NCBI GenBank assembly: GCA_028736075.1
Contig: CP117875.1
Location: forward strand, 3,038,001-3,102,000
Direction: 5' to 3'
DNA length: 64,000 nucleotides
Origin: Chryseobacterium sp. KACC 21268
Lineage (GTDB): Bacteria > Bacteroidota > Bacteroidia > Flavobacteriales > Weeksellaceae
The notes below the pieces were generated by a model. It was not told where the DNA came from and ran no database searches. It saw only the letters and a list, made by a program, of their open reading frames with translations. Within the stretch, counting starts at the first letter, position 1. The number at the start of each line of letters is the position of its first letter. Shown one piece after another: positions 200-52,752 of the stretch. A program made the translations under genes and the position numbers.

Positions 200-425
200 A
201 AACCTCCTGCACTATTCTGGTCGAAAATTCATTTATGAGTTGCATGGATTTCGGCATGGATGCCAGAAAATTATTGGATTCATCATGATACCCAATGATA
301 ATATAACAAAAGCATGAAGACCTTCTTCTGATAAACCTACAAAACTCATCAAACAGTTTGGAGTCAAAACCTTCCATAGGCGTAGCGTCGACTTTTTAAC
401 TCTACAGCAGCGATGAGGGCTGTAA
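200..425 (-). pseudogene. nitroreductase-family C-terminal remnant
   Basis: Reading the minus strand in shifting frames gives pieces that fit the C-terminal third of NfsB/YdgI-like FMN nitroreductases: an ALIAAVELK stretch, then DATPMEGFDSKLFDE, then GLSEEGLHAFVILSLGY, then HDESNNFLASMPK. Joining them needs at least two frameshifts, so no product is possible. No N-terminal half is visible. The family reduces nitro compounds or quinones with NAD(P)H; that function is lost here. The assignment rests on memory of family motifs, not on a search. Confidence 0.6.
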
Positions 426-451
426 AATGGGTAACCAAGTGCATAGTAGAA

Positions 452-1166
452 ATGGCCAATAATCGTAAATCAATTTACATTGCACTTGCCGCCAACCTGC
501 TGATCGCTTTGACCTATTTTATTGCAGGAGCTTTCACCAACAGTTATCTATGATCTCTGAGGAAATCTACTTTACCGTTGATATCCCCAATCGGCTGTTA
601 TTGCTTAATGGATTAAAAAGGAGCTAAAGCCGGCAAATGAATAACATCCTTTCCGCTATGGTAAATAATTATATTTTTGGTCGTTTGTATATTGATATTT
701 AGTCTTGGTGGTGCGTTATCCATTTATCACGGTATCTTACATATTCTGGAGCCTAGATTGATGAAAGACCCGTTCTTGAATTATATTGTAATGGTGCTCT
801 CAACTATTTTCGAGGGTACTTCTCTCTTTTATAGCCGTCAATGAATTCAACAAAACCCGTAATGGCCTGAATTGGTGGGATGTGATCATTAAAAGCAAAG
901 ATCTCGCAAGCTTTCTTGTAGTCTTTGAAGATGGTGCGACAGTCGCAGGTCTTATCGTTGTAATACTTTTGATGGGAATCAGCCATACCTTCAAAAGCCC
1001 TGAATCTGATGGGCCGCCTCTATCATTACTGGTATCTGTTTATTTTATTCTCGCCAGCGAAAGCAGAAACTTATTGATGGTTGAAGGAATAGAGCCGGAA
1101 ACGAGAGAAAAGATTGCAATACTGCGTGAAAAAGATGTTGCGGTGGTCAGAACAAAAAACAACTAA
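452..1166 (+). pseudogene. cation diffusion facilitator (CDF) transporter remnant
   Basis: The segment begins with ATG and MANNRKSIYIALAANLLIA, a typical first membrane helix of CDF metal exporters, and hits a stop after FTNSYL. Later frames give SLGGALSIYHGILHI, FLNYIVMVLSTIFEGTSL, then SFLVVFEDGATVAGLIVVI with LLMGISHTFK, and finally ETREKIAILREKDVAVVR. These appear in the order found in intact CDF proteins but in different frames, with several indels and stops. An intact relative would export Zn, Co or Cd ions. The last open piece starts at 882 and is not a gene of its own. Confidence 0.75.
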
Positions 1167-1179
1167 CAACAAACTGAAT

Positions 1180-1240
1180 AAAAAAGGAGAGCAAATAAAT
1201 GCTCTCCTTAATGATGTATTTATAACTTATGATGAATAAG
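1180..1240 (-). ncRNA. candidate leftward small RNA (copy A)
   Basis: On the minus strand a TATGTTTG motif (1254-1247) lies 20 nt after a TTG (1277-1275), matching the Bacteroidetes -7/-33 promoter pattern. About 60 nt downstream is a perfect 8-bp hairpin (GGAGAGCA 1186-1193, TGCTCTCC 1200-1207) followed by TTTTTT on this strand. A second small hairpin, ACTTA-TTCATCA-TAAGT (1224-1240), sits near the predicted 5' end. The ~60-nt transcript is predicted, not shown. Copy B keeps both hairpins. Confidence 0.5.
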
Positions 1241-1243
1241 TCA

Positions 1244-1277
1244 ATACAAACATACAAAATTTATATTAACTTTGCAA
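1244..1277. promoter_or_regulatory. overlapping divergent promoter motifs
   Basis: Leftward: TTG at 1277-1275 and TATGTTTG at 1254-1247 on the minus strand, spaced 20 nt. Rightward: TAACTTTG at 1267-1274, with no clear -33 TTG in this copy (copy B has TTG 22 nt upstream). The motifs overlap, so RNA polymerase could probably occupy only one direction at a time. Confidence 0.45.
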
Positions 1278-1280
1278 TGT

Positions 1281-1345
1281 TTTTTAGAAGACTAAATTAA
1301 TTTTTTTTAAGTTGAAGCTATCTCGATCAGATAGCTTCTTTTTTT
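1281..1345 (+). ncRNA. candidate rightward small RNA (copy A)
   Basis: Downstream of TAACTTTG a ~65-nt segment ends in a 10-bp perfect hairpin (GAAGCTATCT 1314-1323, AGATAGCTTC 1329-1338) and a run of seven T (1339-1345), a textbook intrinsic terminator. The block TTAGAAGACTA in the transcript body is conserved in copy B. There is no gene upstream on this strand except the CDF pseudogene, so the terminator otherwise has no obvious client. Confidence 0.5.
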
Positions 1346-25409: not shown

Positions 25410-28136
25410 TTACAATGGAAGGGTAAACCAGAATGCAGTACCAATTCCCAATTCACTGTCTACACCGATCTTTCCTCCGTGATTCTTTATAATATCGGAA
25501 CTTATGTAAAGCCCAAGCCCAAGTCCAGTGAACTTCTGTCCCTGATAGTTTGTGCGATAGTAGCGGTCGAACAGATGAGTAAGCTTGTCCTTGGGAATTC
25601 CAGGGCCTGAATCGTGGACGCTGATCATCATTTCATTACCATCTGTCTTCTTAGCTTCTATCCTGATGTCTGAATCCGGAGCGTATTTTATGGCATTGGT
25701 GATGAAGTTGACCATCACCTGCCCGATCTGCATATTGTCAGCCTCAACGATCTGACCGGTATCACCTTCGAAGATAATTCTCTTTCCTGAAGGGTGTGTC
25801 AGGCTTGAACAGCAGTCGTCAAAAAGTTCAGCAACAGAAAATGTGCTTTTCTCGATCTTCAGCTGCCCCTGTTCCAGTCTGCTGGTATCCAAGAGGTCGT
25901 TGATCAGACGGGTAAGTTTGTCGAGGGTGCCGACAGATTGGTCCAGCAGTCTGTTCCTGGTCTCGTTCGTCAACCTGTCGCTTGACCTTTGGAGGAGTTG
26001 CAATGTTGCCTTGAGAGATGTTACAGGCGTCTTTAATTCGTGACTTGCGATACTAATGAAGTCATCCTTGCCTTGGGAGATCATCCTTCTGGCGGTCACG
26101 TCCATAAATGTACCGATGCCCCCGGACAGATTTCCATCATCATCGAAAAGAGGTGCTGCGTTGATCGATATATACATCCTATCCCTGCCAGGTGGTTGCA
26201 CGCCTATCTCGCGGTCGAAGACTGGCTTTTGGGTTGTCATCATTATAGACATCGGGTGTTCCTCGGAAGGAAGTGGTGAGCCATCCAATCGAAGGTTCTG
26301 CCATTGAGGATCATCGTATGTCCTGTCCTTTATCCTACTCTCGCTGAGGCCAAGTATTTGCTGTGCCATAGGGTTTGCATAGACCAGGTTCCCCTCTGCA
26401 TCCGTTACGCCGACACCCTCTGCCATCGTTTCAAGGATACTGCGCAGACGCTGTTCACTGTTCCGGATGGTCTTTTCCAACTCGCTTTTTTCTATAATGG
26501 TCTCTTCTTTTTCCTGGATCGCCAAGACCTGGGATGTGACCTCCACTGCAATATCGATGACCCCTACCACTTTTCCGTCTTCAATGTAGGGAGTATAGCT
26601 GAAGTTGAAAAATCCTTTTTCCAGATTTCCGTTGCGATTGAGCGTAACCGGGTTGGAAAGATCAGAGTTGAATTTTCCCTTCTCATAGGTCTCGATGAGC
26701 AGATCAGCAGCATTTTGTCCCCTTAGTTCAGGGATCTCCTCGAACAGAGGCTTACCAATTACGCTCTCATCCTTGCCGAGAAGTTCCAGCATCGATGAAT
26801 TGATCATACTAATAATAAAATCATCGCCTTTGACCAACAACATCGCTACAGGCGACTGCGAAACGATATTGCTGAAGCTAACCTCCCTGTCGTACAATTT
26901 TCCATTGAGCCGGGTTATGGTGTCATTAAGTTCCTTTAATTCCGTGTTGCGTGATTCAAGATCTTTATTCGAGCTGGTCAGGCCTCTAATATCGCCTTTG
27001 AATCCACTATTTTCAGAATTTAATTGTGCATTGTCCTTATTAAGCTGCTCATTGAGAAGGTCTATCTTTTGATTCGCCGTCTCTAAATAATCATTGGTGG
27101 CTGAATACTCTTCGTTGAGCGCTCCCAGTTCTTCATTGGCACTTTGGATCTCCTCATTGAGTGCCGTCAGCTCCTCGGAGTATTCTTGCGCTCTTTTTTC
27201 ACTGGCCTCCAGGGCTTTTCTGGAATTGACATTCTCTGTCACATCCACAGTAGTTGCCATCACCGCATCAACATTTCCTTCATTATTTAGTAAAGCGTGG
27301 AAATTGATATCAATGTATTTGTCAATGATCTGTCCGTCAAGATATGATCTGAATGATACGGACTCAAAATTAACCGTCTTTCCAGAATCAAATACCTGAT
27401 CGAGCTGATCTGAAAATACCTGTCCCTTTAAAAGTGGGAAGACCTCCAACAGTGGTCTGCCTTGAGCGCTGTCCTCACTTTCTCCCCATATCTCCAACAT
27501 CTCGGGATTGGCGGTCTCAACGATCATATCAGCACCTCTCAGGAGTGATAATCCTATAGGGGTTGTCCTGAGCACCTCATGCATCCTGCTCTCTGTCATT
27601 TCCAGTTTTTGGAAAGTTTTTGTCAGAAGAGAATTTGTCTCGTTCAATTCTTCATTCGTTGCCCTGTACTCTTCATTTGCGGCCGCAAGCTCCTCATTGA
27701 TCTTTTGTTCAAGTGCTTCCTTTTCACGGATAAGTTCCCAGGCCTTTACCTTTTCAGTCACGTCGGTCGCAGTGTGGAGAATGCAATATATCTTACCATC
27801 TGCGTCAATGATGGGTCTGTAGATGAAATCAAAATAGGAGGTGACCATTTCCCCATCGATCTCCAAGGTTGCCTGAGTGTTTGTGGCCTCATAGACCTTT
27901 CCTGTTGTCCAAACATCCTTGAGAAGCTGTGTAAATGGCTGGCCTTTCATCTCAGGCAGTGCATCCTCAAATCTCCATCCCTTGATCGAGTCATCTTTGC
28001 CCCATATCTTGAGCATTGCATCGTTGACAAATTGGATATTCAGGTCAGGTCCGGTATAGATGGCTGTAGCATCACTGGATTGTTTAAGGATCCCGAAGAT
28101 GGCCTCAGTACCTAATGCCGAAAAGTAATTGATCAT
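25410..28136 (-). CDS. multi-PAS histidine kinase
   Basis: 908 residues, cytosolic. PAS domains at ~10-140, ~180-300, ~430-550 and ~560-680. Each ends in a PAC-like strand: LHTATDVTEK, MATTVDVTEN, IDIAVEVTSQ and IGTFMDVTAR. Two coiled-coil stretches lie between them: ~140-180 (EEYRATNEELNETNS) and ~310-425 (IQSANEELGALNEEYSATND). HisKA has SHELKTPVTS (His ~699), HATPase has VHDSGPGIPKDK and TGLGLGLYISS. There is no receiver on the protein; receivers are encoded on both sides (28283-28645 and 24982-25338), making a three-gene phosphorelay unit. Ligands of the PAS domains cannot be told. Parts of this gene are duplicated at 45863-46043 and 58505-59332. Confidence 0.92.
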   Translation of the reverse strand: MINYFSALGTEAIFGILKQSSDATAIYTGPDLNIQFVNDAMLKIWGKDDSIKGWRFEDALPEMKGQPFTQLLKDVWTTGKVYEATNTQATLEIDGEMVTSYFDFIYRPIIDADGKIYCILHTATDVTEKVKAWELIREKEALEQKINEELAAANEEYRATNEELNETNSLLTKTFQKLEMTESRMHEVLRTTPIGLSLLRGADMIVETANPEMLEIWGESEDSAQGRPLLEVFPLLKGQVFSDQLDQVFDSGKTVNFESVSFRSYLDGQIIDKYIDINFHALLNNEGNVDAVMATTVDVTENVNSRKALEASEKRAQEYSEELTALNEEIQSANEELGALNEEYSATNDYLETANQKIDLLNEQLNKDNAQLNSENSGFKGDIRGLTSSNKDLESRNTELKELNDTITRLNGKLYDREVSFSNIVSQSPVAMLLVKGDDFIISMINSSMLELLGKDESVIGKPLFEEIPELRGQNAADLLIETYEKGKFNSDLSNPVTLNRNGNLEKGFFNFSYTPYIEDGKVVGVIDIAVEVTSQVLAIQEKEETIIEKSELEKTIRNSEQRLRSILETMAEGVGVTDAEGNLVYANPMAQQILGLSESRIKDRTYDDPQWQNLRLDGSPLPSEEHPMSIMMTTQKPVFDREIGVQPPGRDRMYISINAAPLFDDDGNLSGGIGTFMDVTARRMISQGKDDFISIASHELKTPVTSLKATLQLLQRSSDRLTNETRNRLLDQSVGTLDKLTRLINDLLDTSRLEQGQLKIEKSTFSVAELFDDCCSSLTHPSGKRIIFEGDTGQIVEADNMQIGQVMVNFITNAIKYAPDSDIRIEAKKTDGNEMMISVHDSGPGIPKDKLTHLFDRYYRTNYQGQKFTGLGLGLYISSDIIKNHGGKIGVDSELGIGTAFWFTLPL

Positions 28137-28282
28137 ATTGTAAAAGCTGATTAAATGTGATCATCCGCTCATAGGAAAGAGAAATACTGACAGCCAGCTT
28201 AATATTTACTATAGCAACAGATCTAGAGTATATTGTTGTTGGAGTTTAAAAAACTAAATTATTTTAAAATAACCGGAATGAT

Positions 28283-28645
28283 CTACAGGACATATCTATT
28301 GATGGTAGACACAAGCTCGTCAAGATCGAACGGTTTCTTGATGTGATCTTCAGCTTCACAATCATTTTGCAATGAAGCAATATGATTGCTGGCGCTGATC
28401 AGGAGAACGGGTATGTTCTTAAATTCTCCGTTGTCCTTTAGCAATTTGATTGCAGCAACACCGCCGATATCAGGAATTTGATTGTCCATTAAAATAAGAT
28501 CGGGCAGAAAAACTGAAACCCTCTCTAAGATATCGTGTGAGGTCTTTGAGATCTCAATATCGAAACCACTATCGATGAGGATGATCTGGATAACTTCAAG
28601 TATCGCTTCATCGTCATCGAAGATCAAGATTTTTTTCTTTGGCAT
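28283..28645 (-). CDS. single-domain response regulator
   Basis: 120 residues from ATG 28645 (MPKKKILIFDDDEAILEVIQ). The DDD pocket, phosphoacceptor Asp in LILMDNQIPD, Ser switch in VLLISASNH and Lys in IKKPFDLDE are intact. It lies 146 bp upstream of the multi-PAS kinase, same strand. Degenerate copies of this gene lie at ~46189-46340 and ~50135-50500; the intergenic sequence between it and the kinase is also copied in the first of these. Confidence 0.9.
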   Translation of the reverse strand: MPKKKILIFDDDEAILEVIQIILIDSGFDIEISKTSHDILERVSVFLPDLILMDNQIPDIGGVAAIKLLKDNGEFKNIPVLLISASNHIASLQNDCEAEDHIKKPFDLDELVSTINRYVL

Positions 28646-29106
28646 TAATTATTTATCATTCAAAATTATACGAGATACTTTTTGACAATTGCCATAATCA
28701 GATCCATTAAATGATGATGCAAATATACTATATTTTAATTACTAATTACGATGAAAATCTGTCCTCTAAGATACCTATCCGGTCAGCAGCTATCCTTTAA
28801 TAATACAACCTTAAAATCTGAATCCAATGTGTCTAAAAATCTTCAATATTAGTTTTTGTACATGTGTAAAAAAATGATCTTCTGATCACAATATTTTTGA
28901 AGTTTACATTACCTAAAATATTGTTATACGGAATATGCACCATACTACATTTTGAACGTGTAAATAATATTAATAATAATAATAATAATATATTTCATAT
29001 CAAAATGACGGATTAATATCAATTCATCTTCTAATGAATCAGAGAGCAGTACATTTATTTTAATTATAAAGATTAAAAATTTTTGTATTATGAAACAACC
29101 CAAATA
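28646..29106. other. intergenic stretch upstream of the kinase operon
   Basis: AT-rich DNA between convergent-looking transcription units; it holds the promoter of the response regulator at 28645 and a TAA microsatellite. No ORF. Confidence 0.4.
28971..28990. repeat. TAA trinucleotide microsatellite
   Basis: About 6.7 perfect TAA units in non-coding DNA, ~325 bp upstream of the response regulator start. Length change by slippage is possible. Confidence 0.85.
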
Positions 29107-45693: not shown

Positions 45694-45862
45694 AAAATAT
45701 AATTTTAAATTGTTTTATTAAAATTGAATGTAAGTTTTGGAAGTAATAGATACTTCCTCAGAAAAGGAAATTTCTACCAGGTGCGTCCTAGTAAACAACA
45801 ATTATACCAGATATGATTTATAAATAATTATTTAGAAGCTGTAAGGGGTTGCTCTTTATATT

Positions 45863-46465
45863 TGGCAGTGCACCCTCAAATCTCAATCCCTTGATCGAGT
45901 CACCTTTGCCCCATATTGAGCACTGCATCGTTAACAAATTGGATATTCAGATCTCGTCCGATACAGATCACTGTAGGATTATTGGATTGTTTAAGGATCC
46001 CGAAGATCGCCTCAGTACCTAATGCCGAAAAGTAATTGATCATAATGTAAAAGCTGATTAAATGTGATCATCCGCTCGTAGGAAAGAGAAATGCTGAAAG
46101 CCAGCTCAATATTTACTATAACAACAGATCTAGAAGATATTGTTGCTGGAGGTAAAAAACTGACTTATTTTAAAATAACCGGAATGATCTACAGGACATA
46201 TTTATTAACGGAACACACAAGCTCCTTAAGATCGAACGGTTTCTTGATGTGATCCTCAGCTTCACAATCACTTTGAAGGGAAGCAATATGATTGCTGGCA
46301 CTGATCAGGAGAACGGGTATGTTCTTAAATTCTTCGATGCCTTTTTGCAATTTAATTGCAACTGTTACATCAGATCTGATTATTTTGATAAGGCTTTTAA
46401 GATCCAAACCATCAATTATGTATAAAACAGTTCTCACAGTATGTATCTCATATATCAACTCCAAT
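45863..46465 (-). pseudogene. decayed partial copy of kinase start, spacer and response regulator
   Basis: 45863-46345 aligns nearly base for base with 27957-28430: the 5' end of the multi-PAS kinase gene, the non-coding spacer and the 3' half of the response regulator. The kinase copy (MINYFSALGTEAIFGILKQS) shifts frame after about 46 codons through a 2-nt deletion. The regulator copy keeps EFKNIPVLLISASNH and HIKKPFDL but its N-terminal half (46346-46464) is unrelated or highly diverged and lacks the acidic pocket and phosphoacceptor Asp. A 91-codon open frame (46189-46464) remains but cannot be a working receiver. Confidence 0.85.
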
Positions 46466-50134: not shown

Positions 50135-50500
50135 AAATATATTTATTTATCGCAGACAAAAGTTCGTTTAATCGAACAGTTTCTTTAAGTGATCCTCTGC
50201 TTTACAATTATATTGTAATGAAACAATATGATAATTGGTAATATACGGCAAAAGGGGGAATATGTTCTTAAAATTTTCATTTTTCTTTACAAATTTATTG
50301 CAGCAACACCACAAATATCAGCGATTGGATCTTTCATTAAAATAAGATTAGGCAAAATTCCGATGCCTTTTCCAGATATCATTTGAGTTCTTTGAGATTA
50401 ACACGATCCATTAGAATGATATCAATAACCTCTAGTATGTCTTATCGTCATTAAAAATATTTCTTTCTTTTTTTGTATTAATTATTTATGATTCAAAAAA
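50135..50500 (-). pseudogene. decayed third copy of the response regulator
   Basis: This stretch aligns over its length with the gene at 28283-28645: it shares the pattern of ATCGAACxGTTTCTT near the 3' end, the CACCxCxxATATCAG block in the middle and TATTAATTATTTATxATTCA around the start. The start codon is lost (CAT changed to GTA on the plus strand), and many stops and indels are present. It is more diverged than the copy at 45863-46465. Confidence 0.75.
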
Positions 50501-50589
50501 TTATACAGTATTATTTTCATAATTAAATCGCTTAGTAATGCAAATAATATGTCATTTAATATAGCTTCACGTATTGTAACTTTAATTAA

Positions 50590-50653
50590 TAAAAAGAAGC
50601 TATCTTATAAAAAAGACAGCTTCATTTTGAAAATTATTGTAGTCTTCTAACAG
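50590..50653 (-). ncRNA. candidate rightward-type small RNA (copy B)
   Basis: Minus-strand TAACTTTG (50667-50660) has a TTG 22 nt upstream. The predicted ~64-nt transcript keeps TTAGAAGACTA and ends in GAAGCTGTCTT / AAGATAGCTTC plus TTTTTATT. Compared with copy A, one stem base changed A to G, keeping pairing as G-U, while the loop is unrelated in sequence. Confidence 0.5.
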
Positions 50654-50693
50654 ACATTACAAAGTTAATACAAATATTGTATACTTGTACAAC

Positions 50694-50753
50694 TTATTCA
50701 TCATAAGTTAGAAGTACATCTTTAAGGAGAGCATTTATTTGTTCTCCTTTTTT
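50694..50753 (+). ncRNA. candidate leftward-type small RNA (copy B)
   Basis: TATACTTG (50680-50687; one mismatch to TAnnTTTG) precedes a ~60-nt segment with the hairpin AACTTA-TTCATCA-TAAGTT and the terminator GGAGAGCA / TGTTCTCC followed by TTTTTT. The stem differs from copy A by one C to T change, which keeps pairing as G-U. Confidence 0.5.
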
Positions 50754-50760
50754 AGGTTTG

Positions 50761-51801: not shown

Positions 51802-52752
51802 TTATACAATTTTATCATTTCTAGGTTCGGCACCAGATACTATATTCTCCGAATCTTCCATAGATGCTAACTGAGGGCTCCACTTAGCATGCTTTGACGG
51901 CTTTATTGCATGCCCCATTTTCTTAGCGTATACCTTTGTAAATTCAACACCAAAGAAAATGATCTGGCAGGTATAATTAATCCATAACAATAGTAATATG
52001 ATTGTGCCAGCAGTTCCAAATGCAGAACTAGGATTAAACTTGTCAAAATAAAATGTCAAAAGATATTTTCCTAAAGTAAAAAGTCCTGCTGTGACAACTG
52101 CTCCGAACCACACTGACCTCCACTCTATTTCTACATCTGGGAGTATTTTGAACATTGCTGCGAAAAGGAAGAATGTTATTAAAAATCCAACTAATATGTT
52201 AATGATGTTTACAATAACAAGCGTTTCAAGACTGAAACGACGAATTACCCAATCATTAGCTAAACCGATGAAAGAACTCAACATCAATGTGATCAATAAA
52301 AGAAAAGCTATAACTATAATCATTCCAAGCGAATTTGCACGATCTAATAAATATTTCTCCCAAGCTTTTTTGGGTGCTGCGATAACATCCCATAATTTAT
52401 TCAATGACTTTTGAAATTGAAAGAATAGAGATGTAGCACCGAACACTAAGGTGACCACACCAACTATTTTCATAATTACGTTTTCTTTATCAACCATACC
52501 ACCAATTACCATTTCCTCAAGGCTTTTGCCAACATCTTTCCCCATCATACTACCAATTACCTTTGTTATTTCGCCTCTTACAGCCTCTTCACCAAAGAAA
52601 ATTCCTGTGATCCAAATAATGATAATAAGAAGGCCAGGAATTGAAAAAATTGCACTGTATGCTAAACTCGCAGCCTCTGTACCGAGATCTCTTGCACTCC
52701 AGTCTCTGTAAGTATCTTTGAGTATATCCCAAAAGTTGATAAGTTTTTTCAT
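51802..52752 (-). CDS. YihY/BrkB-family inner-membrane protein
   Basis: 316 residues, six predicted membrane helices. Family features seen: WSARDLGTEAASLAYSAIFS near the N-terminus, VIAAPKKAWEKYLLDRANSL, LPDVEIEWRSVWFGAVVTAG, and the late FNPSSAFGTAGTIILLLLWI followed by YTCQIIFFGVEFTKVYAK. The length fits the family (~280-330). Older names as ribonuclease BN are wrong; the role is unproven, possibly transport or envelope-related. Single gene; its promoter lies in 52753-53067. Confidence 0.9.
   Translation of the reverse strand: MKKLINFWDILKDTYRDWSARDLGTEAASLAYSAIFSIPGLLIIIIWITGIFFGEEAVRGEITKVIGSMMGKDVGKSLEEMVIGGMVDKENVIMKIVGVVTLVFGATSLFFQFQKSLNKLWDVIAAPKKAWEKYLLDRANSLGMIIVIAFLLLITLMLSSFIGLANDWVIRRFSLETLVIVNIINILVGFLITFFLFAAMFKILPDVEIEWRSVWFGAVVTAGLFTLGKYLLTFYFDKFNPSSAFGTAGTIILLLLWINYTCQIIFFGVEFTKVYAKKMGHAIKPSKHAKWSPQLASMEDSENIVSGAEPRNDKIV

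Follow-up and report, generated by a model that had tools for sequence, protein, structure and literature searches.

The window, the whole stretch of 64,000 nucleotides that was analysed, contains two copies of a compact element that probably unites two divergent small RNA genes, in which the housekeeping sigma factor would read one -7 box in each direction. Divergent sRNA genes fit the anatomy of the element better than any rival tested; of the two predicted RNAs, the leftward one has the better support. The element is a plausible addition to a familiar kind of small-RNA locus, an orphan candidate among the intergenic sRNAs of Bacteroidota. Knowledge of small RNAs in this family is sparse, and comparative searches cannot pick up those confined to one species. 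The element is a well-delimited and easily tested candidate, and its back-to-back layout would permit a direct test of exclusion between overlapping promoters. As the evidence stands, it is a neat local finding that leaves the understanding of such systems unchanged.

Two inverted copies with outward-facing terminators

Copy A (1168..1345) and copy B (50591..50754, minus strand), which is inverted relative to A, were aligned by blastn with an identity of 83% across ~165-168 nt and an E value of 2e-42, in agreement with the inverted duplicate reported in a preliminary description of this DNA. The left edge of the homology may reach AACAAAC (1168-1174), a few bases beyond the start first noted. 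A third copy is absent from the whole genome of 4,067,423 bases, in which the next matches are pieces of ~14-33 nt. The flanks of A and B share no homology beyond weak AT-rich matches; therefore, either the unit was duplicated on its own or the flanks were altered past recognition. The element has no conserved ORF.

Each end of both copies carries an intrinsic terminator that points outward, so that the claimed arrangement is present at all four ends. In copy A, the left terminator (1184..1209, minus strand) and the right terminator (1314..1338, plus strand) both have a 10-bp stem. In copy B, one G-C pair of the left-type terminator (50726..50747, plus strand) is changed to G-U, whereas the right-type terminator (50596..50623, minus strand) has one A-U pair changed to G-U and a replaced loop; the two pairing-preserving changes and the freely changing right loop were thus described correctly at the outset. 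All background statistics are based on a sample of twenty 20-kb genome stretches together with the window, 464 kb in total (~11% of the genome), and a strict scan of this sample detected 113 terminators. Outward-facing pairs within 260 nt occur three times in these 464 kb, namely in A, in B and at one site overlapping a coding gene. The outward pairing of terminators in the element is not a product of chance.

Comparison of the two copies further revealed that substitutions affect 2 of 52 stem sites (terminators and hairpin) and 23 of 119 sites elsewhere (Fisher p = 0.009), in a count that compares two sequences only, with stem positions picked from these same sequences and the right stem realigned by hand. 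Both stem substitutions retain G-U pairing. The lower number of changes in the stems is no more than suggestive. The 5' hairpin of the predicted leftward RNA (1225..1241 in copy A, minus strand) is identical at 17 of 17 positions, as had been claimed. Between the copies, identity is 92% (58/63) in the region of the leftward RNA and 80% (51/64) in that of the rightward RNA; the two values do not differ significantly (p = 0.07).

The same terminators could simply be a spacer, which ends long crossing transcripts of the flanking genes and whose centre makes nothing. Copy A indeed lies directly downstream of a plus-strand transporter remnant, and in the family many genes end in an intrinsic terminator with a similar hairpin. 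However, B does not sit between convergent genes, as the adjoining response-regulator remnant reads away from it, and the 464-kb sample has no further outward pair of crossing terminators in non-coding DNA. Moreover, a spacer would need neither the centre nor the 5' hairpin, yet both are conserved in A and B. We consider this explanation rather unlikely.

Genomic surroundings and search for relatives

Both copies are surrounded by gene-poor stretches with pseudogenes. Copy A starts ~8 nt past the point where a transporter gene stops resembling its orthologues; the truncation may reflect either the element's arrival or a deletion ending there. This cation-transporter-like gene (window 413-1160, plus strand, ending near 1160) is broken upstream into several short ORFs and truncated beside A; some of the congeners have intact orthologues, and there is another partial relative at genome position 2299023. 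On the side of copy B, a response-regulator remnant (50139-50506) is 72% identical to 28292-28671, and no such remnant was found when looked for near copy A. This remnant is the third and far more decayed member (72%) of a group in which a histidine-kinase/response-regulator pair (window 27934-28509) has a broken second copy at 45843-46360 with ~90% identity, all three being located within 23 kb. In addition, window 51802-52752 encodes a YihY/BrkB-family membrane protein; a second one at genome position 934706 is only 59% identical, and one of the two is probably a paralogue or acquired.

A covariance model of the leftward RNA, run against 197 genomes of the family, found no homologue outside the source genome; the matches examined from the other genomes resemble ordinary terminators, and many of these follow a protein gene. 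No homologue was detected in 22 congeners, and a BLAST search with copy B in 320 family genomes returned only pieces of ~28-54 nt, mostly at the two terminator ends. The hairpin 19-mer has one match in 84,980 species genomes, in Lachnospiraceae, which is compatible with chance, and an 18-mer has four matches in viral contigs, with similarity confined to the 18-19-mer. A mismatch search with the hairpin in the genus yielded, outside A and B, only matches with 2-3 mismatches, little above the control with the reversed pattern. No Rfam family matched at the gathering score. Plasmids gave no match, and phages gave one 45-nt piece (E 4e-3) and no convincing relative. Separately, a conserved stretch, AGACAATATTGTATAGCCATATAATGA, is common to two genomes of a different genus, where it directly precedes a terminator. 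The orphan status of the element is not unusual, because 27 of the 49 high-confidence intergenic sRNAs of Bacteroides thetaiotaomicron are strain-specific (PMC7366714), as the element appears to be.

These surroundings bring in a second alternative, a small non-autonomous mobile element with hairpin ends, whose RNA-like look would be incidental. It would be consistent with a discrete unit at two unrelated places, one of which abuts the point where the transporter is truncated relative to its orthologues. By contrast, there are only two copies, already 17% diverged, and neither terminal inverted repeats nor target duplications were seen in the flanks inspected by eye. The two hairpins differ from each other and both have outward U-tracts, and the search found neither a plasmid relative nor a convincing phage relative. 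A mobile element is unlikely in our judgement.

Promoter motifs in the two copies

The centre of copy A carries promoter motifs in both directions. The leftward -7 box TATGTTTG (1247..1254, minus strand) has a score of 9.8 and lies 20 nt from a -33 TTG (1275..1277, minus strand), exactly the gap given in the preliminary description; this TTG-N20 spacing has little weight as promoter support. The rightward -7 box TAACTTTG (1267..1274, plus strand) scores 14.1, which equals the median of the training sites, and a fraction of 2.7e-5 of genome positions score at least 14. In copy B, the rightward-type box TAACTTTG (50660..50667, minus strand, score 7.9) is unchanged, whereas the leftward-type box is degraded to TATACTTG (50680..50687, plus strand, score 6.5) and its -33 TTG has become TTA. 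The proposal of motifs facing both ways thus holds in full for A alone, with TATGTTTG to the left and TAACTTTG to the right. As motifs, two good promoters per copy are shown only in A. With the -33 TTG lost and the box reduced to TATACTTG, copy B may have a leftward gene that is weak or being lost, its promoter perhaps fading.

The 21 nt around the rightward box of A (AAAATTTATATTAACTTTGCA) match a promoter conserved in the genus, that of the gene starting MSCGCKTSGDSSHSC in the same genome, with identity in 8 of the 16 congeners examined and one mismatch in the other 8. The start codon of the MSCGCKTSGDSSHSC gene is located 30-34 nt downstream of the start of the box; the gene probably resembles RicT/PSP1. 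The 16-nt promoter core upstream of it, TTATATTAACTTTGCA, is invariant in the source genome and the 16 congeners examined.

In the source genome, TAnnTTTG occurs 59 times within 50 nt upstream of start codons, compared to 16 times on the opposite strand (~3.7-fold), whereas no spacing shows an enrichment of a -33 TTG. Published work agrees with both results: the -7 box of Flavobacterium psychrophilum, located at -12 to -5, has the sequence TAnnTTTG (PMC9723704), and for F. johnsoniae, as cited in PMC7366714, a -33 motif could not be found.

The degraded leftward promoter of B, together with the gene-poor, pseudogene-bearing stretches around both copies, would also suit a former sRNA pair that is now a decaying relic and no longer expressed. 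The stems and the 5' hairpin, which are intact while other sites change, argue against such decay, and we regard a relic as very unlikely.

Predicted RNAs and comparison with known systems

Starts of the RNAs were predicted by placing the -7 box at -12 to -5, following the rule in PMC9723704. In copy A, the predicted leftward RNA of ~63 nt (1180..1242, minus strand) folds at -20.1 kcal/mol, and the predicted rightward RNA spans ~60-67 nt (1279..1345, plus strand); their counterparts in copy B are a leftward-type RNA (50692..50753, plus strand) and a rightward-type RNA (50591..50655, minus strand). Against dinucleotide shuffles, the folding z values are -6.5 for A left, -5.0 for B left, -2.35 for A right and -4.8 for B right, an advantage to which the terminators themselves contribute much. 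The predicted leftward RNA comprises a stable 5' hairpin, a single-stranded linker of ~15 nt (AUAAAUACAUCAUU in A, AGAAGUACAUCUUU in B) and the terminator, whereas the predicted rightward RNA has an AU-rich, mostly unpaired 5' part followed by its terminator. In both copies, the predicted leftward start (1242 in A, 50692 in B) coincides with the base of the 5' hairpin, a coincidence that formed no part of how the start was predicted. Among the claims for two RNA genes of ~60 nt, the leftward one is supported by this start at the hairpin base, by its folding z and by the stems kept between copies; the weak leftward promoter of B counts against it.

Taken as divergent sRNA genes, the element probably works as follows. 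We propose that the sigma factor would fire outward from a shared centre of ~36 bp, with one -7 box per direction, and that two RNAs of ~60-67 nt would be made outward, each ending at its intrinsic terminator. Base pairing in trans may be how these RNAs act, with the linker and the hairpin loop of the leftward RNA as the most likely contact segments, and the pair was duplicated as a unit. The predicted start sites of the two RNAs are 36-37 bp apart; polymerases seated at both promoters would overlap, which makes competition plausible, and we infer from this geometry that the promoters may exclude each other. A full two-way RNA switch, with a shared centre from which polymerase fires in one direction at a time, duplicated and moved within the species, seems doubtful and on balance unlikely. 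As to targets, a limited scan of 365 start regions in the 11% genome sample revealed no preference for start codons. The two RNAs of one copy do not overlap and do not pair beyond chance: the left-right pairing in A (-10.7 kcal/mol) is weaker than the shuffle mean, and that in B is matched by 19 of 200 shuffles.

Alternatively, the rightward RNA could serve a response-regulator gene downstream of it as leader or attenuator. In copy B it points at the decayed response-regulator gene (50139-50506) ~85 bp away, but copy A has no such gene downstream, and the intact response-regulator paralogue (28283-28645) has no copy of the element, which makes this role highly improbable. A tiny peptide or a type I toxin-antitoxin pair is hardly tenable: a 7-codon frame (ATG ... 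TAA) in the rightward direction is kept in both copies, but its amino acids are altered (MFFRRLN and MSVRRLQ) and the predicted rightward start coincides with the G of this ATG, the only conserved one, so the peptide is unlikely and was rejected, while a toxin-antitoxin pair is disfavoured by RNAs that neither overlap nor pair consistently better than shuffles.

Comparison with known systems places the putative sRNA genes near several described groups. The intergenic sRNAs of Bacteroidota, for example GibS of B. thetaiotaomicron (PMC7366714), are likewise short and AU-rich, with TAnnTTTG, an intrinsic terminator and no ORF; those of B. thetaiotaomicron were seen by RNA-seq, whereas the element is known from sequence alone. 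The type I toxin-antitoxin candidates of the same species (PMC7366714) are also paired, oppositely directed small genes, but they are antisense pairs with small ORFs, in contrast to the non-overlapping predicted RNAs of the element with no conserved ORF. By description only, the FopS family of B. thetaiotaomicron (PMC11697453) resembles the element in having multicopy sRNA genes in one genome and housekeeping promoters, and differs in its fourteen members, its conservation across Bacteroidaceae and its demonstrated action. The Rfp sRNAs of F. psychrophilum (PMC9723704), again compared by description only, are small independent flavobacterial transcripts with the same -7 box, while the RNAs of the element are predicted; their median length is 176 bp, compared to ~60 nt here. 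What sets the element apart from the sRNAs of B. thetaiotaomicron (PMC7366714) is the back-to-back joining of its two predicted genes.
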